From: a virus
DNA length: 31,183 nt
IMG/VR virus record: IMGVR_UViG_3300037504_000584
Span: 1 to 31,183 of that record
Strand: one strand, 5' to 3'
The position numbers were made by a program, and so were the translations under genes. The notes below the pieces were generated by a model. The model worked only from the letters and a program-made list of their open reading frames with translations. It had not been told where the DNA came from and made no database searches. Of this stretch, positions 8,869 to 29,993 are shown in pieces. Positions within the stretch are counted from its first letter, which is position 1. Each line of letters starts with the position of its first letter.

Positions 8869-9178
8869 GATTCGACCGCACTATGTTAAAAATCGGGAAT
8901 TCCGGCGTCTTGGTGATGGTGTCTTCCGAGCGCCGGTCTTGCATAATTTTGTAGAAGAACCGCTGACTTTCTGCATCCTGTAGTTTGGCATTTTTCATGA
9001 TGCCGCTCATAACATAGTCCAGGAATTCCCGCTGTGCCCATTCAAGAGCATCTTTCAGTTCTGGGTCATTATCAATCATTTCGCAGACCTCTCGATAGGG
9101 CTGCTGCAACTTTTTAGCGATTGACCAGTAGTTCCCAGATTGCTCTTTAATGTGCTTTAAGATTTCTTCTCTGTTCAT
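8834..9178 (-). CDS. terS: Probable terminase small subunit
   Basis: The 114-aa protein has an N-terminal helix-turn-helix-like segment (MNREEILKHIKEQSGNYWSIAKKLQQPYREVCEMIDNDPEL as consecutive short helices). It continues with a central helical segment (DALEWAQREFLDYVMSGIMKNAKLQDAESQRFFYKIMQDRR) of the kind that oligomerises in small terminases, and ends in an acidic, disordered tail. It lies directly upstream of the large terminase and overlaps it by 35 bp. Its start overlaps the amidase stop (ATGA). Expected role: recognise phage DNA and regulate the large subunit. The assignment rests on order, size and helical pattern. Confidence 0.75.
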   Translation of the reverse strand: MNREEILKHIKEQSGNYWSIAKKLQQPYREVCEMIDNDPELKDALEWAQREFLDYVMSGIMKNAKLQDAESQRFFYKIMQDRRSEDTITKTPEFPIFNIVRSNHGGEDEDVSAK

Positions 9179-9888
9179 ATGCTCATCTTTTTTGCGATGC
9201 CAAATTTATCGGCTTTGGAAACATTCTGTTCAATGCCGATGGCCTCGCCCCACTTTGGGACTGAAAAGCACGGGCAGGCCTTGCGGTGCACCTGGTTGTG
9301 CCCGAGGACAACCAACTCAGGGAAATTGCTTAGGTACTTCATTACCTGGTTCTTTAACGCAATGCGCTGGTGCAGGGTGCGCGTGTCTTTCGCCTTACCC
9401 TTGCGAACGCCGCCAACGTAGCAGATGTGAATTGCATAGGCGTTGTATTCTCCAGCACCGTAAGCCCAGTCGGTCGGGTCGAAACCATCGGCCAAATTTG
9501 TTTCGACCGTTTGCACCACGCTGCCGTCTCGTTCGATAATTGCGTGGTAGCCACAGCGGCCCCAGCCAAGCCCCAGGTGATATGCTACGATGTTCTGGGC
9601 TTGCGGCTCCACCTTGACACGCTCCTCGGCCACGTCCTGAGCGGTGCAGTGCAGCATCAGCATCGTGGGCGTCTGGCGCTCCTGGAGCAAGCCTAACGCG
9701 AGATAAGTGTTGCGCCCGACCATTCCATCGACCTCGAGGCCGTTCTCGCGCTGGAAGGCCTTTACGGCCTTCTCAAGGCCCGCATCATAGAGGTCGCCTG
9801 ACCGTAGGGCACGCTTGCCCAGTTTTTGGCGTACCAGCACGACCGCCGGGTCACGGCGGCCTAACCGAAGAAGGGGGAATGCTTTCAT
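9175..9888 (-). CDS. Endolysin: N-acetylmuramoyl-L-alanine amidase with peptidoglycan-binding domain
   Basis: From ATG 9888 (ATGA overlap with the upstream gene) the protein is 237 aa. A longer upstream frame exists but runs through another gene. Residues ~10-68 form a peptidoglycan-binding domain (VRQKLG, LYDAGLEKAVKAFQRENGLEVDGMVGRNTYLAL). Residues ~75-215 are an Amidase_2 / T7-lysozyme-like domain. Probable zinc ligands are His80 (LMLHCTAQ), His197 (GHNQVH) and Cys205, with Tyr114 and Lys203 at the T7 catalytic positions (His to Cys spacing of 8, as in T7). It cleaves the amide bond between MurNAc and the stem peptide. No signal peptide is seen, so release needs a holin, which fits the membrane-protein genes just upstream. 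Confidence 0.92.
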   Translation of the reverse strand: MKAFPLLRLGRRDPAVVLVRQKLGKRALRSGDLYDAGLEKAVKAFQRENGLEVDGMVGRNTYLALGLLQERQTPTMLMLHCTAQDVAEERVKVEPQAQNIVAYHLGLGWGRCGYHAIIERDGSVVQTVETNLADGFDPTDWAYGAGEYNAYAIHICYVGGVRKGKAKDTRTLHQRIALKNQVMKYLSNFPELVVLGHNQVHRKACPCFSVPKWGEAIGIEQNVSKADKFGIAKKMSI

Positions 9889-10373
9889 ATGATTTTGAGG
9901 CCTTTGAGGATGCGGAAGATGAAATAGAGTCCGGCAACGCCGAGGGCTACCCACAACCAGGTCGGCACGCGCGTTTTGACTTCTGTAATCACCCGCGTCT
10001 TGGTGCGGGTGCGGTAGTTGGTTACCGCCATCCAAGCGATGGACTGCGCCCAGCGCGTGGCGGAAACCTGCAGGCGGTTCTCATCATCTACGTAAATGCG
10101 GAGTTCCCCGGAGCTGTCGGCTTTAACTTGCTCCAGAATTAGGTCGATGCAAGGCTGCGGCAAGGGCTCCGAGGCGGTCGTGGAGATTTCCCACCTTGGC
10201 AGGTCTATCATCTCGACTTCTGCAACAGTGCAATCGCGGTATTCAATCCGGCCGCATTCTCCGAATTTGCGCTCGCAGGCTCTTCGGGTTACACAGCTAT
10301 TGAGGCTCATCCATAGCAGCGCGATTGAAACCGGGAGGAGTACCTTGAGGATTAGGACGCGTGGTCGGTGCAT
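9885..10373 (-). CDS. Candidate unimolecular spanin (lipoprotein with C-terminal membrane segment)
   Basis: The 162-aa protein starts with a basic tip, a hydrophobic stretch (VLILKVLLPVSIALLWMSL) and a lipobox ending at Cys27 (LNSC), predicting an outer-membrane lipoprotein. Residues ~138-156 (PTWLWVALGVAGLYFIFRIL) form a C-terminal transmembrane segment followed by a basic end. Lipid anchor at one end and inner-membrane anchor at the other is the topology of u-spanins such as phage T1 gp11, which fuse inner and outer membranes at lysis. It lies between small membrane-protein genes and the endolysin. It overlaps the preceding gene by 77 bp and the endolysin by 4 bp. Confidence 0.65.
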   Translation of the reverse strand: MHRPRVLILKVLLPVSIALLWMSLNSCVTRRACERKFGECGRIEYRDCTVAEVEMIDLPRWEISTTASEPLPQPCIDLILEQVKADSSGELRIYVDDENRLQVSATRWAQSIAWMAVTNYRTRTKTRVITEVKTRVPTWLWVALGVAGLYFIFRILKGLKII

Positions 10374-10644
10374 TGTTTCGATAGTTTAGTGCTCTGTTTT
10401 TGGCCGCCTGCGGCCAGACGGAGATGCCCAGCAGAGCCGCTCCAATGGTCAGTACGCCGATGATTAACTCGGTCGGCAGCTGGTAGGTGCTCAGGCCTGT
10501 AGCGAAGAATCCCGCCAAGCCACTGGCGAGGGTAATGCCGCCGTAAACGAGGCGACTCTGCAACTCTCCGTCTTGGGAGTGCAATTCGAGCAGAAAATCA
10601 CTTATTCTCACGGGCGATGTTTTTATAGGTGATGACAATTTCAT
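10297..10644 (-). CDS. Putative holin: small protein with two membrane segments
   Basis: The start is uncertain. ATG 10713, ATG 10644 (115 aa, given here) and GTG 10611 (104 aa) are all possible. GTG 10611 gives the smallest overlap with the preceding gene, which ends at 10598. Two hydrophobic segments, LVYGGITLASGLAGFFATGL and LPTELIIGVLTIGAALLGISVWP, are followed by a basic, Pro/Asn-rich tail. A small two-helix protein beside endolysin and spanin candidates is most simply a holin (inner-membrane hole former that releases the endolysin). No family-specific motif is seen. It overlaps the u-spanin candidate by 77 bp. Confidence 0.6.
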   Translation of the reverse strand: MKLSSPIKTSPVRISDFLLELHSQDGELQSRLVYGGITLASGLAGFFATGLSTYQLPTELIIGVLTIGAALLGISVWPQAAKNRALNYRNNAPTTRPNPQGTPPGFNRAAMDEPQ

Positions 10645-10924
10645 TGATTGTATCGATTTTGCCCGATATTTCTTGGAGCTGCTTTTCGATTTTATCCCAG
10701 GCGGTTTCGACATTGGAAACGCGCTGCTTGACCAGAGCGTGATTCGTGCGCATATCAGAAACTTGCTCTTTCAGCGTAGTAATATAGGTAAGGTGTTGCG
10801 ATTGTTCCTTCTCCACTGACTTGAGCAGCGAATTCATTCTCCAGAACCGCTCGACTGCGATGAAGATGAGTGCTAGCAAGGCCACAAATTGGCCAAGGAT
10901 AAGATAGAGTAGGTTTTCTAACAT
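10598..10924 (-). CDS. Small membrane protein with coiled coil (holin accessory or i-spanin-like)
   Basis: ATG 10924 gives 108 aa. A GTG at 10957 would add 11 residues. The N-terminus is a single membrane segment (LLYLILGQFVALLALIFIAVERFW), followed by a long heptad-like coiled coil (about residues 30-105: SLLKSVEKEQSQHLTYITTLKEQVSDMR...). A membrane anchor plus coiled coil resembles i-spanins (Rz type), or small phage hemolysin/holin-associated proteins. Because the 9885-10373 protein could be a complete u-spanin, a holin or antiholin role is also open. The start overlaps the previous gene by 7 bp. Confidence 0.6.
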   Translation of the reverse strand: MLENLLYLILGQFVALLALIFIAVERFWRMNSLLKSVEKEQSQHLTYITTLKEQVSDMRTNHALVKQRVSNVETAWDKIEKQLQEISGKIDTINEIVITYKNIARENK

Positions 10925-15712: not shown

Positions 15713-16591
15713 TTAATCGGTAGTAAATCCCAAACGTTCAGCCCGGCGCCGGGCCGAGACAGGAACCGCCTCGGGCATCACCGGGATAGCTACGTGTCGG
15801 CAATTATATCCGCCAAGATAGGTAAAAATCGAAGATTGCGTTGTGTTTTTGTGTTTGCCTTGCCATTGCTGGCTTGCCCACGACCGTATTTCCTGAGCCG
15901 TATAATACTCGCCGGCCCGGCGCTCGCAGAATTTACGCGAAGTCGTTTTTAGGGGTCCTTCGTAGAGGTACCATTGCAGCTCTAAATCACGCGCGGCGGC
16001 CTGGAAGTATTCGCGCTCGTACTCCATAAATTGATTGTGCGAGGCTTCGCTATAATAGCGCCCGGGCACGCCTAAATCCCCCTGGGTGCCGTAGACCATC
16101 CTCTGCGTTTGCTGGCGCAGCCCAGCGCGGCTACCGCCAGTTGAAACCGTTTGCCGAACCACGTCCTCGAACCGGTCGACTACCTGGCTCTCGAAGCCAT
16201 CCCCTTCCATTACCCGCCGAGCCAAGCTGAGGCCTTGCTTGCGCCGCTCTTCGGTGAACGCTTCAGGGACTTTGCCGCCTAGGCCGGTGCGCACATACTC
16301 GTCGATGGCATTGGCCGAACTGGTGAAGGCACGGTAGAACTGCTCGGTTTTGCTCCGAATCCAAGGGTTCAACTTAATCGCCAAGCCGATTAGCCGGCGA
16401 ATCTTGCTAATCGTGGCGTAGTTGGCCTTGGTCTGCTTTATGTTGCCGTTGTCGTCCGTTTGTAGGGCCTCTAATGCGCGTTCTATGTCTGAGCTGACCT
16501 TAGCCTTAACTTGAGTAGGAAGGCCGCCCCAGAAGACCACAGAAGCGCCTTGGGCATCATTCAGCTGTTTGAGGAGTTCCTGCGGAGTCAT
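15713..16591 (-). CDS. Minor head protein (Mu gpF / SPP1 gp7-like)
   Basis: The 292-aa protein is helical at the N-terminus and ends in the conserved minor-head region. QWYLYEGPLKTTSRKFCERRAGEYYTAQEIRSW and YLGGYNCRHVAIPVMPE contain the C-x(n)-R-x-G...Y-x-x-x-E-I and GG-YNCRH elements of Mu F-like head morphogenesis proteins. Such proteins sit inside the capsid at the portal and are encoded right after it, as here (35-bp overlap with the portal gene). Length is within the family range. Confidence 0.8.
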   Translation of the reverse strand: MTPQELLKQLNDAQGASVVFWGGLPTQVKAKVSSDIERALEALQTDDNGNIKQTKANYATISKIRRLIGLAIKLNPWIRSKTEQFYRAFTSSANAIDEYVRTGLGGKVPEAFTEERRKQGLSLARRVMEGDGFESQVVDRFEDVVRQTVSTGGSRAGLRQQTQRMVYGTQGDLGVPGRYYSEASHNQFMEYEREYFQAAARDLELQWYLYEGPLKTTSRKFCERRAGEYYTAQEIRSWASQQWQGKHKNTTQSSIFTYLGGYNCRHVAIPVMPEAVPVSARRRAERLGFTTD

Positions 16592-18365
16592 CGGTTGCTT
16601 GTTCCGGTTCGGGGCTCGTGAAGTCTACGTTGCGGGCGGCGGCCATTTCTTCGGCCTTCTGGAGCACCAGCTCCCGCTGTTGTTCGTAGCTCAACTCGTA
16701 GAAGCCTGCGTTTTCATCCGCCAGTAGTTTAATAATCGTCTGAATGTTCAGGCTGGCGTACACATCTACCTGCGAGACGGTGCCTTGCAGCGCGATAATT
16801 TCTTCGACGGTGTAGCCCTGCATCGGGTCGAGGTCAATTGTGGCTTGGTTGTACTTGAGAGCCTCGGGCTGGTCTTGCATCCGTTTGTTTACGTACTCCT
16901 TCAGCAAGAGCCGGTTGGTTGTTCGGTCGCCCACGCCGTTTTCATTATTAAACTGTATCTCGCTCAGTAGGTTGGTGGCCGACAGAATATCAAACGTGTC
17001 GGGGATGGCAATGCTGGGCAGTTCATAGGAACGTTCAGGGTAGCGCATTTGATAGGCAAACTCGAAGTAAGGGCGCAGAATGGTTTCTTTGATATGCTGG
17101 GCAATTGAGAACAGAAAGGCGTTCAGCTCCTCCCGGTCGAATTGCTTGGCCACCCCTGACTCGGCCAGCGGCATATCCATAAGGAACGCCATATTCAAAG
17201 CCTCAAAACCCGCTTGGATGTGCTCCTGAACTTTTTGGTTGAGAAACTTCAGGGGCTCCATCGACTTCTCAACGTAGATGATAGGGCTGTTGTAGTTCCG
17301 GTCGGTTTCGTAGCCTGGGCGATTGTCAATCTTAATGCGGGTCACGCCATAGACGGTCTGCGCGGCTCCGGTGCCCTTGCAGGTGGGGCAGTCGGTTGTG
17401 GTCTCTTGGCCGAAGCGCGTTTGTACGACCTTGCCTCGCCCGTTGCAGGTGCTGCAATCTTCCGGCACGTATTCCACGCGCTCGGGCCAGGCGTGTTGCT
17501 TCACGCCGCCCTGCAAGTCGCTGTACAGAACTAGTGCTTCCGTCCAGTCTTCTATCGCGGGGCTCAGGAAACTTTCGAATATATCGCGGTAATCGTTGCT
17601 TTTCTGTATACCGCCAATCACGTTCGCCGGTATTTGCTGGCAGTCGTGTTGCGTGAGCACTTCGCAGTTGTACTCCCCTTTGCGGTCGGTCGAGGTCAGC
17701 AAGAAGAAGGCCTCGGGTGTTACCACCCAAAACATCTCTTCATCGTCGCCCTTGAGCAGGAGCATCGGGGATTGCTTGCGCTTGAGCTGGCCCCAGTAGA
17801 TAATCTGGTCGGCCCGCCAGAAGATAGGCACCGGCTGATTAAACTCACTTTCTTCCGCATCGTAGTTTTTAGGAAAGGTGAGCACCAGTCCGTTGGGCTC
17901 AGTAAACAGCCAGCGCAAGGTCTCCCGGGCGAGCCAGCGATTGACACCTATCCAGTCTTCGTTCTGGCCGCTGAAATATGCCGAGGGCTGCTCTTCCTCA
18001 GGAATACCGGCAATGTCTTCGTATTCGATAACGAAGCCATCGCTGCGAAATATCTTTTGCACCGTATTGACCACCCGGGCATAGGCCTTTTTGACCACGT
18101 TCCGGAAGTTGGCGAACCGGTACTTTTTTATGTGTTCCGGCTCGCTCGGTTGATAGGTCTCGATTTTTTGTTGGTAGTTTTTCGACTCGCTGATAAGTCG
18201 CACTCGTTCAGACTCCTCGACCGACAGCCGGTAGTCCTCGCGGCGCTTGCCTTGCTCGATATATTCTTCCAGCACATCGACAAAGAATTTGCCGGTGACC
18301 TCCCTGTATTGCTCATCGAATTGTTCGATGAGGCTGGCGGCTAATTCCGTAAAACGCAACTTCAT
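16557..18365 (-). CDS. Portal protein with a DnaJ-type zinc-binding insert
   Basis: From ATG 18365 the protein is 602 aa. A longer frame to 18476 would run through the terminator. Portal-like features are a helical N-terminus, KAYARVVNTVQKIFRSDGF, the RWLARETLRWLFTEPNGL segment, a central stem-like region and a long C-terminal helical part with FEFAYQMRYPERSYELP. Portals form the dodecameric DNA gate for packaging. Two CxxCxGxG units (304-311 and 326-333) occur just before VTRIKIDNRPGYETDR. This is a zinc-binding hairpin of the DnaJ Cys-rich type, unusual in a portal. The neighbouring minor head gene supports the call. Confidence 0.82.
   Translation of the reverse strand: MKLRFTELAASLIEQFDEQYREVTGKFFVDVLEEYIEQGKRREDYRLSVEESERVRLISESKNYQQKIETYQPSEPEHIKKYRFANFRNVVKKAYARVVNTVQKIFRSDGFVIEYEDIAGIPEEEQPSAYFSGQNEDWIGVNRWLARETLRWLFTEPNGLVLTFPKNYDAEESEFNQPVPIFWRADQIIYWGQLKRKQSPMLLLKGDDEEMFWVVTPEAFFLLTSTDRKGEYNCEVLTQHDCQQIPANVIGGIQKSNDYRDIFESFLSPAIEDWTEALVLYSDLQGGVKQHAWPERVEYVPEDCSTCNGRGKVVQTRFGQETTTDCPTCKGTGAAQTVYGVTRIKIDNRPGYETDRNYNSPIIYVEKSMEPLKFLNQKVQEHIQAGFEALNMAFLMDMPLAESGVAKQFDREELNAFLFSIAQHIKETILRPYFEFAYQMRYPERSYELPSIAIPDTFDILSATNLLSEIQFNNENGVGDRTTNRLLLKEYVNKRMQDQPEALKYNQATIDLDPMQGYTVEEIIALQGTVSQVDVYASLNIQTIIKLLADENAGFYELSYEQQRELVLQKAEEMAAARNVDFTSPEPEQATDDSAGTPQTAE
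17367..17456 (-). other. DnaJ-type CXXCXGXG pair encoded within the portal gene
   Basis: Codons for residues 304-333 encode CSTCNGRG and CPTCKGTG, with Cys304, Cys307, Cys326 and Cys329, separated by 14 residues. The paired CXXCXGXG units match one zinc centre of DnaJ/Hsp40 Cys-rich domains. No J-domain is present, so this is a domain insert rather than a chaperone. Confidence 0.85.
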
Positions 18366-18381
18366 AGCTACAAAATAAGAA

Positions 18382-18411
18382 AGCCCCGGCAAACACTGGT
18401 CTACCGGGGCT
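18382..18411 (-). terminator. Rho-independent terminator between tail and head modules
   Basis: On the minus strand AGCCCCGG (18411-18404), a 14-nt loop and CCGGGGCT (18389-18382) are followed by TTCTTATTTTG. It lies between the stop of the 541-aa tail gene (18431) and the portal ATG (18365). The U-tract is interrupted, so termination may be partial. TTATTTTG five bases before the portal ATG resembles a Bacteroidota -7 box, though no well-spaced TTG is seen. Confidence 0.75.
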
Positions 18412-18430
18412 GGCGGGCATCGAGGGGGCC

Positions 18431-20056
18431 TTAGGGCTGGATGACTACTACAATGGTTGCAGCGTCGGTGTCGCAACTCGCCACACCCTCAATCTCAATC
18501 CAATAGTTGCCGGCAGTGGCACTGCCGTCATAATTGAGCTCGAGGGTTGCCTGGTTGGTTCCCGGTAGCGCTGAAGCCGGTGTAATCGTCGGAATCAGGT
18601 TTGCAGGCAGGTTGCTGTTGGCCGTGTCGGTCAGGTTAATCTGCTCGTTGCAGTTTGTTCGAATAAGGTCGAGGGTTACGTTTAACACTTGCGGTGAGCC
18701 CTCGGTAAATGTGACTTGGTTGCTGTCAGGGTCAACTGAAATTGCTGCGGGGGCATCCAGCTGTAAGTCGACTAGCGCGGGCCAATTTCCGCACGAATTG
18801 GTCACAAAGCTGAACTCGACCGTCTCTTCGCCCGAAGGCATCTGGGTCGGGTCGATGTTCCACTGCAGCGTATGCGTTGCGCTACCGGCTGGGATGTTCT
18901 GCGAGCCGTTGCGGAATGTGAACGCGCCCTGCGGCGAAAGGGTGGCCTCAGTAGCCAAAATGTTGTCGTTGCAGCAGATGGCTTGAATGTTTAACTGCGC
19001 TTCGTAATCAATCGTGCCATCGGGCTGCGGAGTTTGCGTCACGTTCGCGGGCGGGATATTGACCGCAATAACTCCTGGCTGCGAGTCGCAGGGCTCCGCT
19101 TGGTTGGCCGGCAGCGGAATCTGCGGGGAGTAGATTTGTGAAAACCCGCAGGCCCGGAACCGAATTGCAAGGCCTTCGGCCGGCGAATTCTGATTTACGC
19201 GAATGCTTAACGAAACCGTGTTGTCGGAGATATTGATGTCAAACAGCTGAATCTGTTTCCAAGAGCTCGGCTGTGTCGTCGGATTTTCAGGGTCGTAGAT
19301 AAAAACCTCAAGGTCTTGTTCGAGGTTTCCGCAGCAAGGGGCGAAAATCGAAAACGACCCATTGTAATCGACAAACGGGTCGGTGGTCGGGTCTCCGTCT
19401 TCCTCCCAGCCGCCCGTGTTTGGGAACGAAGAAGAGTAGTTGAATTTGACTGCAAAGTCGTTTAGCTCGGGGTTGAGGCAGCAATCTGGGGAGGCCTCGG
19501 AGCCCTCCAGCGTGTAGCAGCGGAGCAACTGGTTGACCGGCGCATCTTCAATGATGCGCACCTGCTCCAGCTGCGACCAATTGATAGCAAGGTTGTAATG
19601 GTTCTCGGACTGCGTGCTTTGTTCGATAACGAGGCCTCCGTTTGTTTGCGCCGAGGCCCGCGCAACGTACAATTCATTTGCGCCAATCATCACCAGTCGG
19701 TATTCTGTCGCCCGATTCAGAAAGTCGAGGAAGAGCTGGTTCTGGTTGCTGACATTTTGGAACATTACGTTGGCCGTATGATTGCGGCCAATCACCTTTT
19801 GCTCCTGGTCCCCAAAGCCATCGCCGGTCTGGCCCTCGGAGCTGTAATCGCCTCGGGTGTTTGGAATCAAAAAGGCCTTTTTCTGCTCGATAAGGGACTT
19901 CCAGAAGAACCAATTCTGGGCGTCTATGTCTTCGATGGGCTGCGTCTTTTCAACAAAAATAACGCCGCGCACACGACCTTCCTTCTGTACATTACACGGG
20001 TCGCAGAAGAACGTGGCCGTCTGTTTTGCGCAATCAAGGGTTTTTAGTTCTTGCAT
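18431..20056 (-). CDS. Tail protein with Ig-like domains (possible tail tube)
   Basis: The 541-aa protein has an N-terminal domain (~1-190) with a compact beta pattern and Cys near the start (DCAKQTATFFCDPCN, GRVRGVIFVEKTQPIEDID, VIGRNHTANVMFQNVSNQNQLFLDFL). It resembles tail-tube-like proteins of Bacteroidota phages in general character. Two or three beta-sandwich regions with Cys pairs follow. The last (~440-541) has an Ig-like pattern (VTFTEGSPQVLNVTL, LPANLIPTITPAS, TAGNYWIEIEGVAS). It would make a decorated tail tube or a receptor-contact protein. It is the last gene before the inter-module terminator. The tube call is inference. Confidence 0.55.
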   Translation of the reverse strand: MQELKTLDCAKQTATFFCDPCNVQKEGRVRGVIFVEKTQPIEDIDAQNWFFWKSLIEQKKAFLIPNTRGDYSSEGQTGDGFGDQEQKVIGRNHTANVMFQNVSNQNQLFLDFLNRATEYRLVMIGANELYVARASAQTNGGLVIEQSTQSENHYNLAINWSQLEQVRIIEDAPVNQLLRCYTLEGSEASPDCCLNPELNDFAVKFNYSSSFPNTGGWEEDGDPTTDPFVDYNGSFSIFAPCCGNLEQDLEVFIYDPENPTTQPSSWKQIQLFDINISDNTVSLSIRVNQNSPAEGLAIRFRACGFSQIYSPQIPLPANQAEPCDSQPGVIAVNIPPANVTQTPQPDGTIDYEAQLNIQAICCNDNILATEATLSPQGAFTFRNGSQNIPAGSATHTLQWNIDPTQMPSGEETVEFSFVTNSCGNWPALVDLQLDAPAAISVDPDSNQVTFTEGSPQVLNVTLDLIRTNCNEQINLTDTANSNLPANLIPTITPASALPGTNQATLELNYDGSATAGNYWIEIEGVASCDTDAATIVVVIQP

Positions 20057-20083: not shown

Positions 20084-22621
20084 TTAACAAAATTTATTCT
20101 CTTTCCAAAATTTGGCCTGCGTCAGGGTGCCGGTGCTCCGGCGCAGCCCGCCGAGGCGAGGACGGCTCACTTCTTCTTCGATGTCCACGTCCTCCTCGTT
20201 GACAAATTCGATAAAGTCGTTCCAGGGCTTGAATTTTATCTCAACTTTGTCGGCTTCTAACGCCAGCACCAGGAATTCCACCAAGTGCGGCGGCATATAA
20301 TCGGCTTCCCAGTTGATTGTCTTCCCAACCCCTGCGTAATACTTTGTCATCTGGCCGCCGGTCTGGCGAAAAGCCTCCCGGTTGACTTCGTATTCAGGGT
20401 CGTGCGGAGCGAACGGAAGCCGGAACTCATAGAAGAGGTCAGGCACTACTTGCTGTAATTTGTCCAGGTCGAGCCCGAGCTGGTGGCCACTGCCGTTAAT
20501 ATCGAGCCGGAACTCCGAGGTGTAGCAATCATCCTGAATGCGGATACAATTGCTACACAGCCGCTCGGGGTTTGGGTATTCGATGGCGTGCTCGGCCGGG
20601 AGCTCACAGACCTGCACCTCGTAGATGTACAGTGCACTAAAAACTAGCTCCCCTAAAAGCTGGCCGTTGAAATTGGCAAGAAATTGCAACCTCACATTAA
20701 CATCCGGCGGGCCTGCATCGAAGTATTTTCGCAACGTAACGGCGGCAGATTCTGCAAAGAATTGAACTGGTGCTTCCTGGGCTCCGGGGCTAAAAACCTC
20801 GAAATTGTAGGTTGCCTCTCGGCTACTGCTGGTCGGCTGGCCAGCTATCTGAACGGCGACATTTTTTTCTTGTATCCCTAGGTCGGCACCTACGGTAACG
20901 CGAATCTCGTGGGGATTACTGGTCGACAAGGGAATGTTAGGCCAACTCAGAACTAAGGAACCTGAACTGATTTGTAGGTTGCTCTTCGGTGTAATCTTCA
21001 ATGCTCCGCCTTTCTGAGCTAAGGGCGACCAGTTGCCGGCCAGAGAATTTGAAAAATCAACGTAGGTAATATCAACCTCGGAGCTGTCCACTTGGACACC
21101 CGCTAGCGCTGAGTACGGGTTGTCAATTCGGCCAGAGTCTGAAAACGGGAATACATTCTTACACGGCGGGGGGCAATGTGTGATTCGAAAGTCGTCGAAG
21201 TACAGTTCGCCAGGCACGCCGCCATCGAGCGGGCCTTGGCAGCGAATAATCAATTCGCCCATATTCTCAATCGGACTGAAGGGCGTACTTGGGAAAGTAC
21301 CGGGACCGCCAGGCACGCCGCCGTCATCGGTCTCCACACGCGTTAGAATGCGCTGCCATACGCCAATCAGCCCAGGGTTGGCATCAGTGTTTAACTCGGC
21401 CGTTTCGAGCACTGTCTGGGTAATACCTGGCTGCAGAACGGGGTTGGTGCTCAGCTCAAGGCTCACCTGCCCAGGGACGTCATAACTTATATTCTGACGC
21501 ATCCATAACTCGAAATAATACGTCTCATTGGCGTTAAGCCGGATGCCGTCAATTCGGCCGAAATCTTGACTATTTCGCAAGGTTACCTGCAGGGAGTTAT
21601 CCCCGCTCCGGCTGACGCTGCTGCTTACTTGATAGTTCGTTGGATTGCTTGGGTCAGCATAACGCAGCCCCGTTAGTAGTTCTTGCGGCGATAGGCCGAA
21701 TTGCTCAAAGCCGCCGCCATTGAACGCCGGGTTTAGCAGGTCTGTTTCCTCATTGCAATTGCCCTCGACCGGGAACGGCTCGAAGGAATCCCGCTCAATG
21801 CATAGGTAGTATTCGCCGAACCCGATATTTTCCGGCAGTTCGTACTGTATCCAGTCGCTGCCGTCTTCCAGGACGTACAGCGTGCCGATGTTCTGCGCCA
21901 CCACATCGCAGGCCTGGCAGAGGTCGACTTGATATTGCCCTGGCTGCCAGTACCGCTCGGGTAGGCTTACCCAGGCGCTCACTACATCGCCGCGTTCGGC
22001 CGGCAGGCAAAACGGCTGGTTCGGGTAGCAGTCGGGAGCCTCGGGCGGTTGGCAGTCGGTGACCACCCGGCATTCGGGCTGGCGATAGATTTCAATCCAA
22101 TTGCATTCGGGCTTAATGCACCCGCCACCTGTGCAATAATCGATGACAAACGGCTCACAGATTTGCAATAGATATTCGGCCGATGGCGCTCCTGCTTGTA
22201 TGGCTGCGGAAACGTCGAGGACGTAATCAAACAACCAAATTCCGTCCGCATCTTGCGTGACCGTCACATCCACGAAAGGTGTAGCTAAGCCCACCTGCCT
22301 ATCCGGCTCTGCCAAGGTGACAAGGAACTGTTCAAATCGTACTTCAACGTCTGGGCCGAACGTCAGGAAATACGGGTCGTCATTGAAAAGCTCACATTGA
22401 TTCCCCTGGCCGTAAAAACCAGCCGGCGCAGCAATAAAGCATATTTCTGTCGGGTCGTCTTCGCCTGGCTCCAGCGGTAGGCCGCAAGCCTCTCGGTTCT
22501 CTTCCGCCCACGGGTTGAAGTTGACTTTGATGCCCCACTCGATGGTCTCCGGGAGCTGGTTCGGGTCAACGGTTTCCTCGCAGCATAGCGGTCGCAATTG
22601 TAGATAACCTGAGGGGTTCAT
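20084..22621 (-). CDS. Large Cys-rich tail protein with carbohydrate-binding-like domain
   Basis: The 845-aa protein has no signal peptide. Residues ~155-205 hold eight Cys (155, 163, 168, 173, 184, 190, 198, 205). Residues ~296-482 look like a CBM4/9-type jelly roll (NPAFNGGGFEQFG, SGDNSLQVTLRNSQ, NANETYYFELWMRQN, ELYFDDFRITHC), a fold that often binds glycans. A second beta-rich region (~500-680) and a C-terminal domain with FYEFRLPFAPHDPEYEVNREAF follow. It lies after the hub-like gene (ATGA overlap) and is a candidate distal-tail or receptor-binding protein. Specificity cannot be read. Confidence 0.6.
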   Translation of the reverse strand: MNPSGYLQLRPLCCEETVDPNQLPETIEWGIKVNFNPWAEENREACGLPLEPGEDDPTEICFIAAPAGFYGQGNQCELFNDDPYFLTFGPDVEVRFEQFLVTLAEPDRQVGLATPFVDVTVTQDADGIWLFDYVLDVSAAIQAGAPSAEYLLQICEPFVIDYCTGGGCIKPECNWIEIYRQPECRVVTDCQPPEAPDCYPNQPFCLPAERGDVVSAWVSLPERYWQPGQYQVDLCQACDVVAQNIGTLYVLEDGSDWIQYELPENIGFGEYYLCIERDSFEPFPVEGNCNEETDLLNPAFNGGGFEQFGLSPQELLTGLRYADPSNPTNYQVSSSVSRSGDNSLQVTLRNSQDFGRIDGIRLNANETYYFELWMRQNISYDVPGQVSLELSTNPVLQPGITQTVLETAELNTDANPGLIGVWQRILTRVETDDGGVPGGPGTFPSTPFSPIENMGELIIRCQGPLDGGVPGELYFDDFRITHCPPPCKNVFPFSDSGRIDNPYSALAGVQVDSSEVDITYVDFSNSLAGNWSPLAQKGGALKITPKSNLQISSGSLVLSWPNIPLSTSNPHEIRVTVGADLGIQEKNVAVQIAGQPTSSSREATYNFEVFSPGAQEAPVQFFAESAAVTLRKYFDAGPPDVNVRLQFLANFNGQLLGELVFSALYIYEVQVCELPAEHAIEYPNPERLCSNCIRIQDDCYTSEFRLDINGSGHQLGLDLDKLQQVVPDLFYEFRLPFAPHDPEYEVNREAFRQTGGQMTKYYAGVGKTINWEADYMPPHLVEFLVLALEADKVEIKFKPWNDFIEFVNEEDVDIEEEVSRPRLGGLRRSTGTLTQAKFWKENKFC

Positions 22622-25056
22622 AGCGCCTCTTGCAGTTTAAGTTCAGTCTGCCCGGTGACGAGCTCAAATTTACATTCCTGAATGTAATACGTTTTCCAGC
22701 TTCCGCCGCCCTGGTCAACCACGACTTTGCCATAGGGTTTATCCCGAATGGCTACGAACTGCTCGTAGCTCAAGGTGAGGTCAATCGTGGCCATGATAGG
22801 GGTGAGCACCGGGGAACGTTCGGCTGCATCGATATTGTCGTTTTCTTTGTGCAGGACGATGTTCGGCTCTTGGAACGTGTTACCGTTCGCTGTAAAGGAC
22901 GCATCCTCGGAAGCAATACTTTGGCCCTCTGCCACATAGTTCGCGCGCCCTGAGCGGAATTTGAGGCCTTGTGTGAGCCATTTGACGCCAGCGGCCAGCC
23001 ATCCCCACCAGCGGCGTGCCATATGCCAGGGAGTCAGGGGCCAGTTCATCAGTGAGTCGGGGTCAATTAGGTTGTTCGGGCTGTCCACGCCTTGCATATT
23101 GTATTCGAGAGCATCGTAGGTTGTGCCGTCCACGTCTTTGTCCACGCGGCCCACGCGGATGAAGAAAGCATCGCCGTCCTCTTCGGTGTCTTCCGAGGCC
23201 GATTCATCAAATTGCTTCCGGCGCGTCTTTTCGATAAGGTAGCCGGAGCCGATAATTTCGCTGCGAATTTGCTTATTCGTTTCGACCGTGTTCAGCTCAT
23301 TGAAGGCGTATTGCCGGGTGCTCACGGGCTCATCCAAGCCGCCGGTGGCCTCGGTGTCGAAGCGGGCATACCCTATATCCAGCCTTGAGAATACGATGTC
23401 GTCGTCTATTTGCTCCTCGTATTTGACGATGTCTTTTGTCAGCTCGGGTGTAATCGTTAACACCACGTCATTGGTGTAGAAATACCGTAAGGGCTCAATA
23501 CGTATGACCTGCCGGCTGCTCTCTTGGTCAAACTCTTGCGCCATCCCCAGTGCATAGACCGCCTGCGTGCTGTCAAATAGGGTTTTGAACGAGAGAAAGA
23601 ATTCCTTGTCGTCGGGGAAGCCCCGGAGCTGGAAAGCGCCGGTAACTGCGGTCGAGCTACCAGCGCCCAGCTGGTTGGACGGTGAAGGCAATGGCTCGGA
23701 TGCGGGCCGTCCGAGGTAATCGCTCAGGACGGTTAGTTCGTTGTCGGTCGTGGCTTCAATGACACGGGCGAACGCTTCATTAATTAGCCAGGCCTTGGCG
23801 GTCGTGTCTTTGAAGGTAGTCTTGGTATCGAGGCGCAGTTGAAACGGGCACGTATTTGAGCTGATGCATAGGGGCTCGCCCGACCACACCCGTGGGTCAA
23901 ATGGTGGAAAATTTTGCTCAACCACGCCTAGGCCAAACCAAGTTTGCGAAGCATTCACCGCGGCTCTTCTGACATCCGCATTCAGGGTGCCGCGCAGGTA
24001 AATTCTGAATTCGGAGTCTTTGGGCACTTCTTCGAATGGAATTGTTACGTCAAGACACCCATCGACCTGCTCTGTATAGTAACGCTGCCCAGGGGGGCCA
24101 GTACTCAGCGGCGGGTTTGTAAAGAACGGCACTGGCGTATCAATGACCGTTGTTGTGTTATCCCATTCCAGCACCCACTCCCAAGTGATGTCGATGGCTG
24201 TAGGGTCTGGCGAAGTAGGGTTTGGTGCCGTGTATCGATAGAAATACTTGAAGGAATAACAGAAGCACAGCTGCAGTTCGGAAATATCGTCCTTAGGGGC
24301 AATCCACAATGCCGGCAGCGGGTCAGGGTATTGCTCCGTGTCTTGGTACGACCACGTGCTGGCTCCCCACGTCACGTTGCTCTCGTTGATAATTACGCCT
24401 GCGAATGCCGGTTGGTATTTGACCACGATATTCAACGGCACAATACCAAAGCCGCCGCCCACTACTTGCAATGCCATTCCGGGTGGCGGATTCGGAAAGA
24501 TATTGCTTGTCGCCGGTGGATAACATTCGCCGCCATCTTCAATCTCCCGGCGAATACGCTCGAGGATGGCTTGGCCGAACAGCTGCAGGTCATACCCGGC
24601 ATATAGGTACGGGTCGAGGGGCTGGCCTTCTACGCTCTCCAACTTGTTCATATCGACCTCCTGCTGTGCCCGGCTAAATAGCTTCTCCAGCGCTCCAAGG
24701 TCTTCAATCTGCACTTGAACCCGGTTCAGGGCCCGGTTGATGACCAGGCCATTAAGGTTCACCTTACCTTGATACAGCGTAGCGAAGGAATCGCCCTCGC
24801 ACCGGTATTCAATAATAATGCGGATGTCAGCACCGACTCCGTGAATATCGTATTGCTCCAGAATCCAATCGTAGGCGTTACACCAGAAGGACAAGTCAAA
24901 CGAGAACGAGGGGAACACGCCGTGATAGTCCTCGTGCCGGGCGATAGTGATTTCTGAGCCCTCCGCACCGAACGGCTCCTTCGCTTTTACGCTCGTGGAG
25001 TTGCCGTTTGCGTCTTGGCCGAAGAGTGTGAACTTGAGTCTATCTTTTTGCGCCAT
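22618..25056 (-). CDS. Large distal tail / baseplate hub-like protein
   Basis: ATG 25056 (MAQKDRLKF) gives 812 aa and overlaps the tape-measure stop by 17 bp. A longer frame to 25107 lies inside the tape-measure gene and is unlikely. The N-terminal ~150 residues form a beta-rich domain (GSEITIARHEDYHGVFPSFSFDLSFWCNAYDWILEQYD, VNLNGLVINRALNRVQVQIEDLG). Long beta-rich stretches with aromatic residues follow, and a C-terminal region ends ELVTGQTELKLQEAL. The first gene after the tape measure usually encodes the distal tail or hub protein, which fits. No peptidase or lysozyme motif is visible. Confidence 0.6.
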   Translation of the reverse strand: MAQKDRLKFTLFGQDANGNSTSVKAKEPFGAEGSEITIARHEDYHGVFPSFSFDLSFWCNAYDWILEQYDIHGVGADIRIIIEYRCEGDSFATLYQGKVNLNGLVINRALNRVQVQIEDLGALEKLFSRAQQEVDMNKLESVEGQPLDPYLYAGYDLQLFGQAILERIRREIEDGGECYPPATSNIFPNPPPGMALQVVGGGFGIVPLNIVVKYQPAFAGVIINESNVTWGASTWSYQDTEQYPDPLPALWIAPKDDISELQLCFCYSFKYFYRYTAPNPTSPDPTAIDITWEWVLEWDNTTTVIDTPVPFFTNPPLSTGPPGQRYYTEQVDGCLDVTIPFEEVPKDSEFRIYLRGTLNADVRRAAVNASQTWFGLGVVEQNFPPFDPRVWSGEPLCISSNTCPFQLRLDTKTTFKDTTAKAWLINEAFARVIEATTDNELTVLSDYLGRPASEPLPSPSNQLGAGSSTAVTGAFQLRGFPDDKEFFLSFKTLFDSTQAVYALGMAQEFDQESSRQVIRIEPLRYFYTNDVVLTITPELTKDIVKYEEQIDDDIVFSRLDIGYARFDTEATGGLDEPVSTRQYAFNELNTVETNKQIRSEIIGSGYLIEKTRRKQFDESASEDTEEDGDAFFIRVGRVDKDVDGTTYDALEYNMQGVDSPNNLIDPDSLMNWPLTPWHMARRWWGWLAAGVKWLTQGLKFRSGRANYVAEGQSIASEDASFTANGNTFQEPNIVLHKENDNIDAAERSPVLTPIMATIDLTLSYEQFVAIRDKPYGKVVVDQGGGSWKTYYIQECKFELVTGQTELKLQEAL

Positions 25057-28000
25057 ACCGGGTGCGTTTGATGGTCTGCCGCTTGCGGAACCGCTCCTGA
25101 CGCACATAGAAACCGTCCTCGTCGACCTGAAGCTGCACTTGCGGCACTTGCTTGCCCACCTCTTTACCGAGGCGTTTGTAGTCGATGCTGAAAGAGGCCT
25201 GCGGGCGAGCCTCTCCCTTGCTGGCGCTTAGCATCATCGGGGTAAAGTCGGGCAGCGGAGTGAAGCTTTGCGCGAACTGCTCGGGCGTTAGGTTGCCGGC
25301 ATTGATGGCTTCAAGGTAGTCGGCCCATTTCCCGGCGGCCTCTTTGGTCAGTACAAATTCCCCCTCCGTCAGGCGAGCCGAAACGGTATCAATGCCCGGG
25401 CGCTCGCCGTTCTGGCGTTCCACCCAGCCACCTTCTTTGAAGGCCTGCGGGGTCTGGCGCATCTTGGTCACCCATCCCAAACCGAGGGAGAGAACCGTTG
25501 CAGCGAAGCCGATATTCGCGGGGAATGGCGTACTCGCCAGCGTGTTGGTGGCACTCAAGTTAGCGTTCTGGATGGCCTGGGCAATCTTAATCGCTGTCTC
25601 GGCCGTGTATTGCGCTTTCTCTAGGCGCAACTGCCGGCGGGCGATACGTTCCCTCTCTTGTTGCAATTGCCGCTCTTGTGCGGCCTGCTGTTGGTTGAAC
25701 CGGGCATTGATTTCAGCCCTGCGGCGCTCGTTGTTGCCCACTGCTGCCAGTTCACGCTCCCGCTGTTCGTTGAGTTTGTTCTCCCGGCGCTGCGCCCGGT
25801 TTTCCAAGTTTTGGAGCCGCATTTCTCCCCACTCTTGAGCAACGCCAAATATCTCGGCCTGCATATTGCTCCAGATATTTATCTCACGTTCGGCGGCGGC
25901 TTGGATGGCATCGGTGCGCTGCTGTAAGTTCTCCTCGAGGGCCCGTGTGCGCTGCTCCTCGATATCGGCCAAAAGCTCCTCGTTGCCCTGGGCGAGTTCC
26001 AGTTGCCGGTCGTAATACCGCTCGATAATGTCCTCGCGGTTCTGATAATGGCGGCGAATATCGTCGACCTGCAGGTTGTAAATCGCCGCTTCCTGGTCGA
26101 AGCTTTCCTCAAGGGCAGTCAGGCGGATGTCACGTATCTCGTCGGCCAACTCCATCTCGATGCGCTGTATCTCACTTGCGGTAGCCTCCTCCTCCTGAAT
26201 GCGGCGGTTGGCAATGCGCCGGGCGGCCTCAATTTGTTGGTCAGCCCCGCCCCGCTGTTGGATGTTGACCTGGGCCTGGAACTCGCGGCGGTCGAGCTGT
26301 TCCAGTTCTTTGAGGAGCTCCTGGCGTTCCCTGACTTCGGCCTGGCGTTGTTCGTTGAGCAGGCTCCGCACCTGCATATTGTAGGCGTTGCGCAGGTCGA
26401 TGCGGTCTTGCAAGTGCTCCCGGTCGAGCCGTTCGATGGCCTCGTTATACTGCTCCTCGGTCGTGGTACCGGCGAGAAACTGCTCGGCAATCCTGTCGCG
26501 CTCCTGCTGGTACTCGGCCTCAAGTTCGGCAAACAACTGGTCGAGGGCAGCCTTAGCTTCCTCTGCCCCTTGCTTGAGTGCGTTGGTCGTCGCCTCGGCA
26601 ATGCCATCCCCATCGCCGGCACCTTGCTCAATGCCTTGCTGCATTCCCTGTGCATAGGCCTCGCCGACTTCCTCGCCCTCTTCCTCGGCTCCTTTACGCA
26701 GCAACGCCAGCGACATATTCTCCAAGAACTCGTCCATCGTGACGGTTCCTTGCCGCTGGGTAATCTCGTCGATTTCGGCCTGCAAGTTTTCCATCTGGCT
26801 GGAATACGCGTCCATTGCATTTTCCAGGTCGGCCAGCTCCCCCTCATCCATCGCGCGACCAATGCCGTGCGTGAACATCGTCAAAATGCCGGTGGCCTCC
26901 CGCCCTACTGTACCTAGCATTTCTTCGGCTTCATCCATCGCCCCGCTAATCTGTTCAGCCTCGGCATCGAGTTCCGCTTGTATCATACGGGCATCTACGG
27001 CCACGCTGGCGCGGCGTTCGCCCAATTCCTCCATTTCTGCGTTGAGAGCCTTGAGCCGCAGCTGGTCGGCGAGGGCTTCGTTCGCCCGGCGCTGGATAAT
27101 GCTAATCTGATGAATACTCGCCCGCTCCAAGTCGAGATTGCCCAGGTACTCGCCGTATTGCTCATTCAGCTGCTTGATTATTTTGGCCTTTTCCCCTTGC
27201 TGGTCGCCCACATTTTTGAGTGCCTGGAAGAGGTCGTTCATCTCGTTTTGCTGGCGCTGTATTTCGTCGTTGACCAGCATCATTTCGCGTTTGAAACTTT
27301 CGGCGGTTTCCTTGGCCGCGTCGAAATCGTCGGTCAGGGAGCCTATCGCGTCCCTTAGTGCGAGGATACCTTCCAAGATGACAATAGGGGCGAAAGCGCG
27401 AGCGATGGCCTTGCCGGTAGCCACCACGCTGGTGCGGAAAGCTTTTAGGCTGCGCCCGGAAGCCCGGAGCCCTGCCCGAAACTTGCTCACTGAGCCTAAC
27501 ATTCGGCCGAACGTCTTGCCTGTGCGTAGGACAGCCTTGCCCAGGTTGACAAACTGCTGGGAGAGTCGGCGGCCGGTCTTGGTGAGGGCGAGGAATGCAG
27601 CGAGGAGCAACTCCGCCCCTTGCCGGACGGTTTCCATTACGTTGTTGAAGGCTTCCTGCTGCTCCATCGTGGCCTGCGTGCCCCGCAGCCAGTTGGCCAG
27701 ATAGCCCAGTAGTTCCGCGATGGTCTGTATCAAATCCCGTAGCGCTCCCTTATTGCCCTCGGCCAGCTCGTTCGTGAAAGACTCCCAGGCGCTATTGAGG
27801 CGGCGAATATCCCCCTGTAGGTTGTCCTCCATTATTTTGGCCGTCTCCTCGGCGAAGCCTTGGCTATTGAGGAGCTCCTCGTTCATGCCGGCAATGGCAT
27901 CGGCTCCCTTATTGAGCAAGGCGGTGAAGCGGCCACCTTGCTGCACCCCAAAAATTTGCACCATATCGCGAGCATCGGCACCCGCGGCCTCGAACTGGCG

Positions 28001-29179
28001 GAAGAGGTCGACCAAGCCCACGAACTGCCCCTCGGAGTCCCGTAGCTGAACCCCTAGGCGCTCGAGAGCCCGTTGTGCATCCTTCGGCGGGTCGATAAGG
28101 CGGGAGAGGCCAGACCGTAGGGCCGTACCGGCCTCGGCTCCGCGTATCTGCTGCTCGGCCAATACGCCCAGGGCAGCCGAAAGTTCTTCGACCGGCACAC
28201 CTAAGGCACTAGTAACTGGCGCAGCTACACGAAAGGCACTGCCCAGTTCCCCGACCGTAGTGGTTGCGCTGTTGGCTGTCTTGGCGAATACATCGTTAAT
28301 GCGCGTTATCTCGTCCACCTCAAGGCCATAGGCTCCAAGTGCACCGGTCGCAATCTCGCTGGCTTCGGCGAGGTCAAGGTTGCCGGCAGCGGCCAGCTGG
28401 AGCACGCCCGGCAATACGCCCTGTATCTCGTTAACGGTGAGGCCCGCCCGTGCGAGGGTGGCCTGGGCATCGGCGGCCTGTTGAGCCGAGAAGCGCGTCT
28501 CCCCGCCCAGTTGCTTAGCAAGGTTGCGCATCGTTTCCATCTGCTCCTCCCCAGCGCGGGTGAGGGCTCGTACCTCGGCCTGAGCCTGGTCAAAGCCGGC
28601 GAAGCGCGTAATCACCTCGCGGCCAAAATCGCGAATGCGGTCGAGGGCGAAAGCGGCTCCAATCGCCACGCCTAGGCGGCGAAACCCGGTCTCCATCCGC
28701 TCGGCACTGTTTCCTACACGGCGCATCTCATCGGCAGCCTGGTTGCTGGAGCGTTTGATGTCCTTGAGTTCCCGGTTTACCCGCTGCAGGCCCTTCTGGA
28801 GCTTGCGGGCCCGGTCGGGGTCGGTGGCCTGGTGCAGCTCCCGGTTCATATCCTCGCTCTCGTTCTTGAGCTGGCGGGTCAGGGCGGCATTGCGGCGGGT
28901 CGACTTACCGAGGGCACTCATCGCCGTTTCGGTGCGGTTAATCTCGGCGGTCAGGCGCTTCTGCTCCTCGGGGTCGGTGGCCTGAGCCAGGGCCTTGCGC
29001 AGACGGTTGGCCTCTTTGGCGAGCTCGCGCATTGACTTCTCCGACTGCTGGAACTCCTTATTCGCGCCGTCGAAGGAATTACCGAGGTCGCGGGCATTCC
29101 TGCGGATGGCCTCGAGGTCGTCCTTCATCCGGCGAAGCCCGGAGTCATCGTAGTCTATGTCAAGGCGGATATCGGCCAC
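25040..29179 (-). CDS. Tail tape measure protein (TP901-type core)
   Basis: The 1379-aa protein starts at GTG 29179; an ATG at residue 18 is the alternative. It opens with a coiled coil (1-165) containing two related ATDPxxxxKL segments. The TP901-type core (~190-480: RFAGFDQAQAEVRAL, GGETRFSAQQAADAQATLARAG, AGTALRSGLSRLIDPPKDAQ) and hydrophobic segments (~540-640) follow. A very long charged coiled coil then leads to the characteristic end FKEGGWVERQNGERPGIDTVSARLTEGEFVLTKEAAGKW. It sets tail length. At about 0.15 nm per residue this suggests a tail near 200 nm. Confidence 0.95.
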   Translation of the reverse strand: MADIRLDIDYDDSGLRRMKDDLEAIRRNARDLGNSFDGANKEFQQSEKSMRELAKEANRLRKALAQATDPEEQKRLTAEINRTETAMSALGKSTRRNAALTRQLKNESEDMNRELHQATDPDRARKLQKGLQRVNRELKDIKRSSNQAADEMRRVGNSAERMETGFRRLGVAIGAAFALDRIRDFGREVITRFAGFDQAQAEVRALTRAGEEQMETMRNLAKQLGGETRFSAQQAADAQATLARAGLTVNEIQGVLPGVLQLAAAGNLDLAEASEIATGALGAYGLEVDEITRINDVFAKTANSATTTVGELGSAFRVAAPVTSALGVPVEELSAALGVLAEQQIRGAEAGTALRSGLSRLIDPPKDAQRALERLGVQLRDSEGQFVGLVDLFRQFEAAGADARDMVQIFGVQQGGRFTALLNKGADAIAGMNEELLNSQGFAEETAKIMEDNLQGDIRRLNSAWESFTNELAEGNKGALRDLIQTIAELLGYLANWLRGTQATMEQQEAFNNVMETVRQGAELLLAAFLALTKTGRRLSQQFVNLGKAVLRTGKTFGRMLGSVSKFRAGLRASGRSLKAFRTSVVATGKAIARAFAPIVILEGILALRDAIGSLTDDFDAAKETAESFKREMMLVNDEIQRQQNEMNDLFQALKNVGDQQGEKAKIIKQLNEQYGEYLGNLDLERASIHQISIIQRRANEALADQLRLKALNAEMEELGERRASVAVDARMIQAELDAEAEQISGAMDEAEEMLGTVGREATGILTMFTHGIGRAMDEGELADLENAMDAYSSQMENLQAEIDEITQRQGTVTMDEFLENMSLALLRKGAEEEGEEVGEAYAQGMQQGIEQGAGDGDGIAEATTNALKQGAEEAKAALDQLFAELEAEYQQERDRIAEQFLAGTTTEEQYNEAIERLDREHLQDRIDLRNAYNMQVRSLLNEQRQAEVRERQELLKELEQLDRREFQAQVNIQQRGGADQQIEAARRIANRRIQEEEATASEIQRIEMELADEIRDIRLTALEESFDQEAAIYNLQVDDIRRHYQNREDIIERYYDRQLELAQGNEELLADIEEQRTRALEENLQQRTDAIQAAAEREINIWSNMQAEIFGVAQEWGEMRLQNLENRAQRRENKLNEQRERELAAVGNNERRRAEINARFNQQQAAQERQLQQERERIARRQLRLEKAQYTAETAIKIAQAIQNANLSATNTLASTPFPANIGFAATVLSLGLGWVTKMRQTPQAFKEGGWVERQNGERPGIDTVSARLTEGEFVLTKEAAGKWADYLEAINAGNLTPEQFAQSFTPLPDFTPMMLSASKGEARPQASFSIDYKRLGKEVGKQVPQVQLQVDEDGFYVRQERFRKRQTIKRTRYGAKR

Positions 29180-29214: not shown

Positions 29215-29526
29215 TTATCGTCGCTTGGCTTTTTCGGCTAACTGGCGTTGTTCTTGTTCGAGGGCTTTGGTTCTGCGGTAGTCAAGGAGTTCAAAGAGTT
29301 CTTCAACCCCCAAACGCTTTGTTGCATTGTACTCTGAAGCGCCGCCAGCCGCGATTGCAGCCAAGCTCTGTCGCTCTCGTCGGCGTATTCCTCGGAAAGC
29401 ATCTGAGAAACTCTCCGGAGCATCCTCGTCTCCTTCATCCTTACCTCCGCCAAATAGAGCGGGGTACTGATTTTGAAGAACGCTGGCCAATCGACGTACT
29501 CGCTCAAAGGCAAACGCAAAAAAAAA
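29215..29526 (-). CDS. -1 frame extension of the tail assembly chaperone (GT-like)
   Basis: In the -1 frame relative to the 29993 gene, codons run open from the U9 run at 29526-29518 down to TAA at 29215, about 101 codons. The encoded segment contains no Met and has no ATG start. Only a TTG at 29490 could serve as an independent start. It reads like a real protein, AFAFERVRRLASVLQNQYP...LGVEELFELLDYRRTKALEQEQRQLAEKAKRR, and ends in the charged helix typical of tail chaperone tails. With the first 158 residues of the frame-0 product it would give a ~259-aa fusion, analogous to lambda gpGT. It lies 35 bp before the tape measure. Confidence 0.7.
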   Translation of the reverse strand, partial: FFFAFAFERVRRLASVLQNQYPALFGGGKDEGDEDAPESFSDAFRGIRRRERQSLAAIAAGGASEYNATKRLGVEELFELLDYRRTKALEQEQRQLAEKAKRR

Positions 29527-29993
29527 CCATCGATGTCGGGATTGGCGGCCCAGGCCTCAGCCTTCTGGTTTACGTGATTTTCGTCGTAGCCGTAGGGGTC
29601 TTCTTCGGCGGTGAAATAGGTCGTGGCGGCAATCTTGAGGGCAATCTCAGGCTCGCTAATCCATTGCGTACGTTCCTGCAAGTCGGTGAGGAGTCGGGAG
29701 GCCTCGACGATGTCGGGCTGAGCTCGGTTGAGGGCGCTCTTAATCGCCTTGAGGGTGACTTGCAGCAACTCATCGGTGCAACGGTATTCAAGCTGCCGGT
29801 AAAGGCGCATAAGAGCCAGGGCGCGCAGGCAGCCCAGGTTCCAAGGCTCAGCGAATTGGTAATGCGCTTTGCCCTGGATGTGTAAGGCATACGTGATGGT
29901 ATGCTCTTTGTCGGGGAAGGCCTGCTCGGGCGGCGGGGCTTTGCTGGGAGCCTTGCCGGTGAAGTTGTTGTCTATGGTCTGTGGTTCGGCCAT
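29238..29993 (-). CDS. Tail assembly chaperone (G-like), frame-0 product, 251 aa
   Basis: ATG 29993, TGA-type stop at 29238. It is first in the tail operon and immediately upstream of the tape measure, the position of G/GT chaperones that bind the tape measure and recruit tail tube protein. The N-terminal ~155 residues are a helical domain (WNLGCLRALALMRLYRQLEYRCTDELLQVTLKAIKSALNRAQP, SRLLTDLQERTQWISEPEIALKIAATTYF). Codons 156-159 lie on GGT TTT TTT TTG, a classical slippery site. After it this frame continues another ~93 codons (LRLPLSEYVDWPAFFKI...). The same DNA is also open in the -1 frame to 29215. TATATTGC six bases before the ATG resembles a weak -7 element. Confidence 0.75.
   Translation of the reverse strand: MAEPQTIDNNFTGKAPSKAPPPEQAFPDKEHTITYALHIQGKAHYQFAEPWNLGCLRALALMRLYRQLEYRCTDELLQVTLKAIKSALNRAQPDIVEASRLLTDLQERTQWISEPEIALKIAATTYFTAEEDPYGYDENHVNQKAEAWAANPDIDGFFLRLPLSEYVDWPAFFKISTPLYLAEVRMKETRMLRRVSQMLSEEYADESDRAWLQSRLAALQSTMQQSVWGLKNSLNSLTTAEPKPSNKNNAS
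29518..29526 (-). other. Slippery U9 run: candidate -1 frameshift site
   Basis: Nine A on the plus strand give GGTTTTTTTTTG on the minus strand, read in frame 0 as GGT TTT TTT TTG at codons 156-159. T-TTT-TTT is a canonical -1 heptamer (X XXY YYZ). The homopolymer could also support transcriptional slippage. No convincing downstream stem-loop was seen by eye. Confidence 0.7.

Follow-up and report, generated by a model that had tools for sequence, protein, structure and literature searches.

Previous studies on phage lambda have shown that gpG and gpGT coat the tape measure protein, that the T domain binds the major tail protein and that the ratio of the two chaperones matters (PMC5009743, PMC4493119). 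The shift that appends T to G has been described as lying near the 3' end of g (PMC5009743), and the unshifted lambda protein stops 5 codons after the slip sequence GGGAAAG. A -1 frameshift upstream of the tape measure gene is also found in P2 (E/E+E') and its relatives. P2 E ends about 6 codons past the annotated shift site, and in P2-like loci, where the slip site is U UUU UUG, the unshifted frame continues for 13–21 codons. Runs of nine A or T that give alternative products are known from Thermus dnaX and from type III secretion genes which, unlike the gene described here, are not phage chaperones (PMC5009743). A search of a library of open-licence papers returned no account of long dual-coded chaperone tails. 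The gene examined here resembles that of lambda in that a -1 slip heptamer lies in a chaperone gene that immediately precedes the tape measure gene, with a shared N-terminal domain and an additional domain in the -1 frame. However, it has no detectable sequence homology to gpG/gpGT, and 92 codons follow the slip site before the unshifted frame closes.

The gene lies on IMG/VR virus record IMGVR_UViG_3300037504_000584, of which a stretch of 31,183 bases was analysed (the window). All features of the window described below are on the minus strand. The open reading frame at 29238–29993 encodes a G-like protein of 251 residues in what we call frame 0. Codons 156–159 read GGT TTT TTT TTG. The nine consecutive T's (T9, 29518–29526) are the longest homopolymer in the window and place two overlapping -1 heptamers, U UUU UUU and U UUU UUG, in frame 0. 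The domain common to both possible products comprises codons 1–158 (29518–29993); its codon score in frame 0 (0.26) is like that of true genes, and it is kept in three relatives. After the TTG codon, frame 0 runs on for 92 codons (29241–29516, stop at 29238–29240). The -1 frame has many stops throughout the first 155 codons and none in the 100 codons after the T-run (29218–29517, stop at 29215–29217). Its stop falls 23 nt past that of frame 0 and 35 nt ahead of the tape measure start. A tandem -1 slip on U UUU UUG would join 159 and 100 residues into a fusion of 259 residues with a T-like C-terminal domain. The third frame closes 0–4 codons past T9 in this phage and in all three relatives. The first-pass annotation had proposed a canonical -1 heptamer within nine T's at codons 156–159, about 101 open codons without Met in the -1 frame, about 93 open codons in frame 0, and two products of similar size that share an N-terminus and differ in their C-terminal halves; the frames measured here agree with each of these points.

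A separate initiation of the -1 tail was considered and rejected. The tail contains no ATG and one TTG, and the phage does not use Shine–Dalgarno sequences, so that a start of its own is unlikely. Gene starts across the window show no Shine–Dalgarno motifs and are preceded by an A-rich stretch around -15 to -12, a pattern that suggests a Bacteroidota-like host.

Elsewhere in the window, the portal protein (16557–18476) carries at residues ~337–372 a DnaJ-like Cys-rich insertion of the zinc-binding CxxCxGxG type, which matches PF00684 with E = 2e-5 and Anti-TRAP PF15777 with E = 4e-5; neither match reaches its curated cut-off. The open reading frames at 9175–10035, 9885–10373 and 10297–10713 are consecutive and overlap by ~77–150 nt. 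The first of them is endolysin-like (peptidoglycan-binding plus amidase-like), and its TTG start may be wrong.

The assignment of this gene as a tail chaperone, also made in the first-pass annotation, is supported by its position and synteny and not by a family match. It stands directly upstream of a tape measure gene (25040–29179, 1379 aa; PF10145 with E = 1.6e-47, and PHROG tape-measure families), which is followed by a virion structural protein of phrog_15220 (22618–25107) that is conserved in relatives. Searches of Pfam, PHROGs and NCBIfam returned no match to the protein, and no relatives of the chaperone were found in 50,697 phage records or in plasmids, tblastn included. A structure model of the window protein from its single sequence was useless (pLDDT 41). 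A four-sequence model of the protein from one relative (L111) reached a moderate pLDDT of 69, and fold searches with this model gave no significant match; the HK97 chaperone 2ob9 was the fourth PDB hit, with a non-significant E value of 2.1. The locus shares with the G/GT type the place upstream of the tape measure gene, the in-frame heptamer, an open -1 frame that ends at the tape measure gene, and a conserved slip site. Since two usual features are absent, namely an early stop of the unshifted product and a sequence match to a known chaperone family, we class it as a variant of the G/GT kind and not as a member of a named family.

Three related contigs (L109, L110 and L111) were found in IMG/VR by a degenerate-pattern scan. 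The scan that succeeded used alignment A4, in which rows 2 and 3 are invented sequences that widen the patterns and were used nowhere else; searched with the real window sequence, the three contigs give tblastn E values of 2e-14 to 8e-13. Peptide-pattern scans with the chaperone, the terminase and the structural protein produced no matches, and L115 has no recognisable relative of the chaperone gene. The N-terminal domain of the window chaperone is 23–25% identical to those of L109–L111, and the protein matches that of L110 with a BLASTP E value of 9e-17. The order chaperone, tape measure, phrog_15220 protein is common to the window, L110 and L111, and the phrog_15220 protein itself matches with E values of 2e-45 (L111) and 2e-32 (L110). 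The L109 contig ends just past the frame-0 stop, inside the -1 tail. In the place immediately upstream, where a G/GT locus would have its major tail protein gene, small open reading frames precede the window chaperone. The chaperone genes of L110 and L111 are preceded at a short distance by a small membrane-type open reading frame (L110, 5416–5679; L111, 5336–5659) in which a K-P-L-F-E-C motif is conserved.

All four phages have exactly T9 at the same codon of the chaperone, and the flanking bases diverge: the slip site of the relatives reads GAT TTT TTT TTG. The -1 tails are 100 codons long in L110 and 104 in L111, and they are homologous in every pair of phages (window against L110, z 6.7; against L111, z 6.4; against L109, z 3.9). 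Relatives with stops in the -1 frame or without the T-run had been named beforehand as observations that would speak against the proposal. None was seen: all three keep T9 and an open -1 frame. Frame 0 also stays open past the slip site in the relatives, for 45 codons in L109, 63–64 in L110 and 45 in L111. Long frame-0 tails (45–93 codons) are, on these sequences, a trait of a small family and not of the window phage alone.

We then asked whether the similarity of the tails in one frame exceeds what conservation of the other frame would produce, by comparing it with random synonymous recoding of the other frame's proteins (2000 redraws). The frame-0 tails of L109–L111 exceed the recoding of the -1 proteins in each pair (P = 0/2000). 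The converse holds for the -1 tails of the same phages, which exceed the recoding of frame 0 with P values of 0 to 0.0045. For L110 and L111, for example, the frame-0 score is 43.5 against -16.3 ± 9.0 expected from -1 conservation, and the -1 score is 27.5 against -22.7 ± 9.8 expected from frame 0 (P = 0/2000 in both directions). Synonymous divergence between L109 and L111 falls from 0.87 upstream to 0.36 in either overlapping frame (Fisher 4e-7 and 2e-7), and their substitutions at the three codon positions change from 32/17/70 in the N-terminal part to 9/11/15 in the overlap. The frame-0 tail of L110 would be open in 1 of 20,000 synonymous redraws (0.005%). In the relatives, both frames are thus constrained at once, and dual coding is well supported for the family by these sequence comparisons.

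The same data bear on a technical explanation, by which an error in sequencing or assembly of the homopolymer conceals a run of different length and the -1 frame is the plain continuation of the gene. Homopolymers are error-prone, and one extra T would put the -1 tail in frame. However, the three related contigs come from other metagenomes and also read exactly T9, and conserved, constrained frame-0 tails in relatives are not expected from an indel error. We consider this explanation very improbable.

A second alternative concerns the window itself. In an ordinary G/GT shift only the -1 tail would matter; the frame-0 tail of the window would be passively open, and G would end functionally near the slip. 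The variable length of the frame-0 tail (45–93 codons) favors this explanation, and so does the weak resemblance of the window's frame-0 tail to those of the relatives: it shows no significant similarity to L109 (P 0.20) or L111 (P 0.26), and the comparison with L110 gives P = 0.001, a value that partly reflects stop penalties. What speaks against an ordinary shift is the conservation of the frame-0 tails of L109–L111 beyond that of the -1 frame, and the constraint on synonymous sites in both frames. These relatives give the clearest evidence that frame 0 is selected independently, and the case for the window rests on base and codon composition.

By chance, T9 is expected ~0.1 times on the transcribed strand and ~0.001 times in the 307-nt window of the -1 frame, and the four codons GGT-TTT-TTT-TTG would be chosen together with P = 0.003 under the synonymous usage of the phage itself. 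When synonymous codons are redrawn around a constant frame-0 protein, 1.0–1.2% of the redraws leave the -1 frame open, and none of 20,000 draws reached the observed -1 codon score. In the converse test, which holds the -1 protein constant, 24–26% of redraws leave frame 0 open; openness of frame 0 alone is therefore weak evidence, as an ordinary shift would have it. The observed frame-0 codon score was reached in 0.02% of these redraws (P = 0.0002 under the phage's own usage), which argues against passive openness. A stricter null that permutes only the codons of the -1 frame does not find this score unusual (P = 0.11), so that the evidence from the score requires the odd codon usage of the -1 frame to result from frame 0. 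In log-likelihood per codon, the frame-0 tail scores 0.025, the -1 tail 0.068 and the third frame -0.30, compared with a mean of 0.225 for true frames and -0.22 for off-frames (99th percentile -0.025/-0.047).

Across the overlap, GC3 of the -1 frame is 0.44, lower than in any of the 1413 true-gene windows of equal length (minimum 0.46, mean 0.68); flanking coding sequence has 0.72 and 0.82. The third positions of the -1 frame are the second positions of frame 0, and coding in both frames predicts that they should have the composition of second positions. They do: A.31, C.26, G.18, T.25 in the overlap is close to genomic second positions (A.34, C.22, G.18, T.26) and unlike genomic third positions (A.17, C.37, G.30, T.17), which again argues against an ordinary shift. 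A composition model with dual coding reaches a log-likelihood of -370.8, ahead of frame 0 alone (-374.0) by 3.2 and of the -1 frame alone (-380.9) by 10.1 log units. By halves, the first 46 dual codons are beyond all true windows in GC3; the last 46 have 0.50, a value seen in 4% of true windows. Since GC3 is also low (0.36) in the -1-only stretch of L111 past the frame-0 stop, composition alone is not proof of dual coding, and the low values may alternatively arise because codon usage is weakly selected in a domain that is seldom made. Weighing these points, we consider a passively open frame-0 tail in the window unlikely, and dual coding of this longer tail probable but not proven; it is the least certain part of our interpretation.

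To place the length of this overlap in context, we compared it with 61 other chaperone overlaps that lie beside tape measure genes and contain an in-frame slippery heptamer; the set was compiled mechanically and includes many loci that are related to one another. A tape-measure alignment search gave 80 unrelated loci, used only as an overlap-length control, and a tape-measure fragment search gave 18 further loci. The frame-0 remainder after the slip is 0–35 codons in the 61 loci, many of which are P2-like with a remainder of 16 codons, and 92–93 codons in the window. The first-pass annotation had contrasted the gene with lambda, where the frame-0 product stops soon after the slip, and had called such long dual coding unusual; the measured remainders (5 codons in lambda, 92 here, 0–35 in the control loci) agree on both counts. 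Closest in length are L038, L043, L051, L058 and L060, in which a U-rich slip site is followed by 30–35 codons in frame 0, about one third of the remainder in the window, and whose chaperone sequences are unrelated. These loci slip on TTTTTTA or TTTTTTC and possibly form a second, moderate dual-coding group. Tenacibaculum phage JQ, phage MD05 and Pseudanabaena phage Pan5 have a similar phrog_15220-type structural protein downstream, but upstream of their tape measure genes lies a single uninterrupted open reading frame of ~200–240 aa with no frame change. Unrelated single-frame genes of ~200–240 aa precede the tape measure gene at L002:4624-5277, L003:5447-6052 and L004:5213-5941; these loci have only the phrog_15220 protein in common with the window and represent a different solution in a similar tail module.

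How the two frames would be joined is a separate question, since T9 allows slippage of the ribosome as well as of RNA polymerase and the sequence cannot separate the two. Polymerase slippage on T9 would give mRNAs with 8, 9 or 10 U's and hence two or three C-termini; it concerns the mechanism and is compatible with dual coding. Transcriptional slippage in bacteria is reported at runs of 9 A or T (PMC5009743). All four phages keep T9, even though U UUU UUG needs just T6, and in the window the run is kept despite the low shares of GGT among Gly codons (13%) and of TTT among Phe codons (38%). No stimulatory RNA structure is conserved either: a stem-loop or pseudoknot downstream of T9 is unsupported (z -1.6 to +1.8), and no notable consensus structure was found. 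An internal Shine–Dalgarno stimulator is also unlikely in a phage that does not use such sequences. On the other side, T9 contains a pair of canonical heptamers, one of which, U UUU UUG, is the most frequent slip site among the control loci, including P2-like ones, where short T runs suffice. Frameshifting of the G/GT type is usually ribosomal. We therefore lean towards ribosomal slippage at T9 and regard polymerase slippage as a plausible, less probable mechanism. An extension of polymerase slippage, in which 8 U's would give a short product that ends within a few codons, predicts three chaperones (short, 251 aa and 259 aa) whose two selected tails serve as different tail-assembly partners; this possibility appears rather remote.

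Taken together, we favor, with a probability of roughly 0.7, a chaperone of the G/GT type with two selected tails, that of frame 0 being a genuine second ending. Most translation would read through T9 in frame 0 and yield the 251-residue G-like protein. A fraction would slip by -1 at T9 and yield the 259-residue GT-like protein, which would share the first 159 residues and end in the T-like C-terminus. The lambda pathway is the best model for the roles of the two products. By this analogy, the T-like C-terminus would bring the major tail protein to a tape measure coated with chaperone. In contrast to its lambda counterpart, the unshifted protein would carry a long C-terminal tail of its own, encoded by the same DNA. 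The frames, T9 and its conservation, the homology of the -1 tails and the double constraint in the relatives are seen in the sequences themselves; we infer that both proteins are made, that the ribosome and not the polymerase slips, what the two products bind, and that the window's own frame-0 tail functions.

Annotation pipelines would call this chaperone gene with only one of its two ends. In bacterial viruses it is uncommon for two protein tails to be encoded by one long stretch of the same strand, and this small orphan group of phages allows the two kinds of slippage on T9, ribosomal and transcriptional, to be compared directly. Should both tails function, the lambda model of a plain G and a G with an extra T does not extend to this chaperone family, and the unshifted protein would have a separate role that goes beyond the shared domain.
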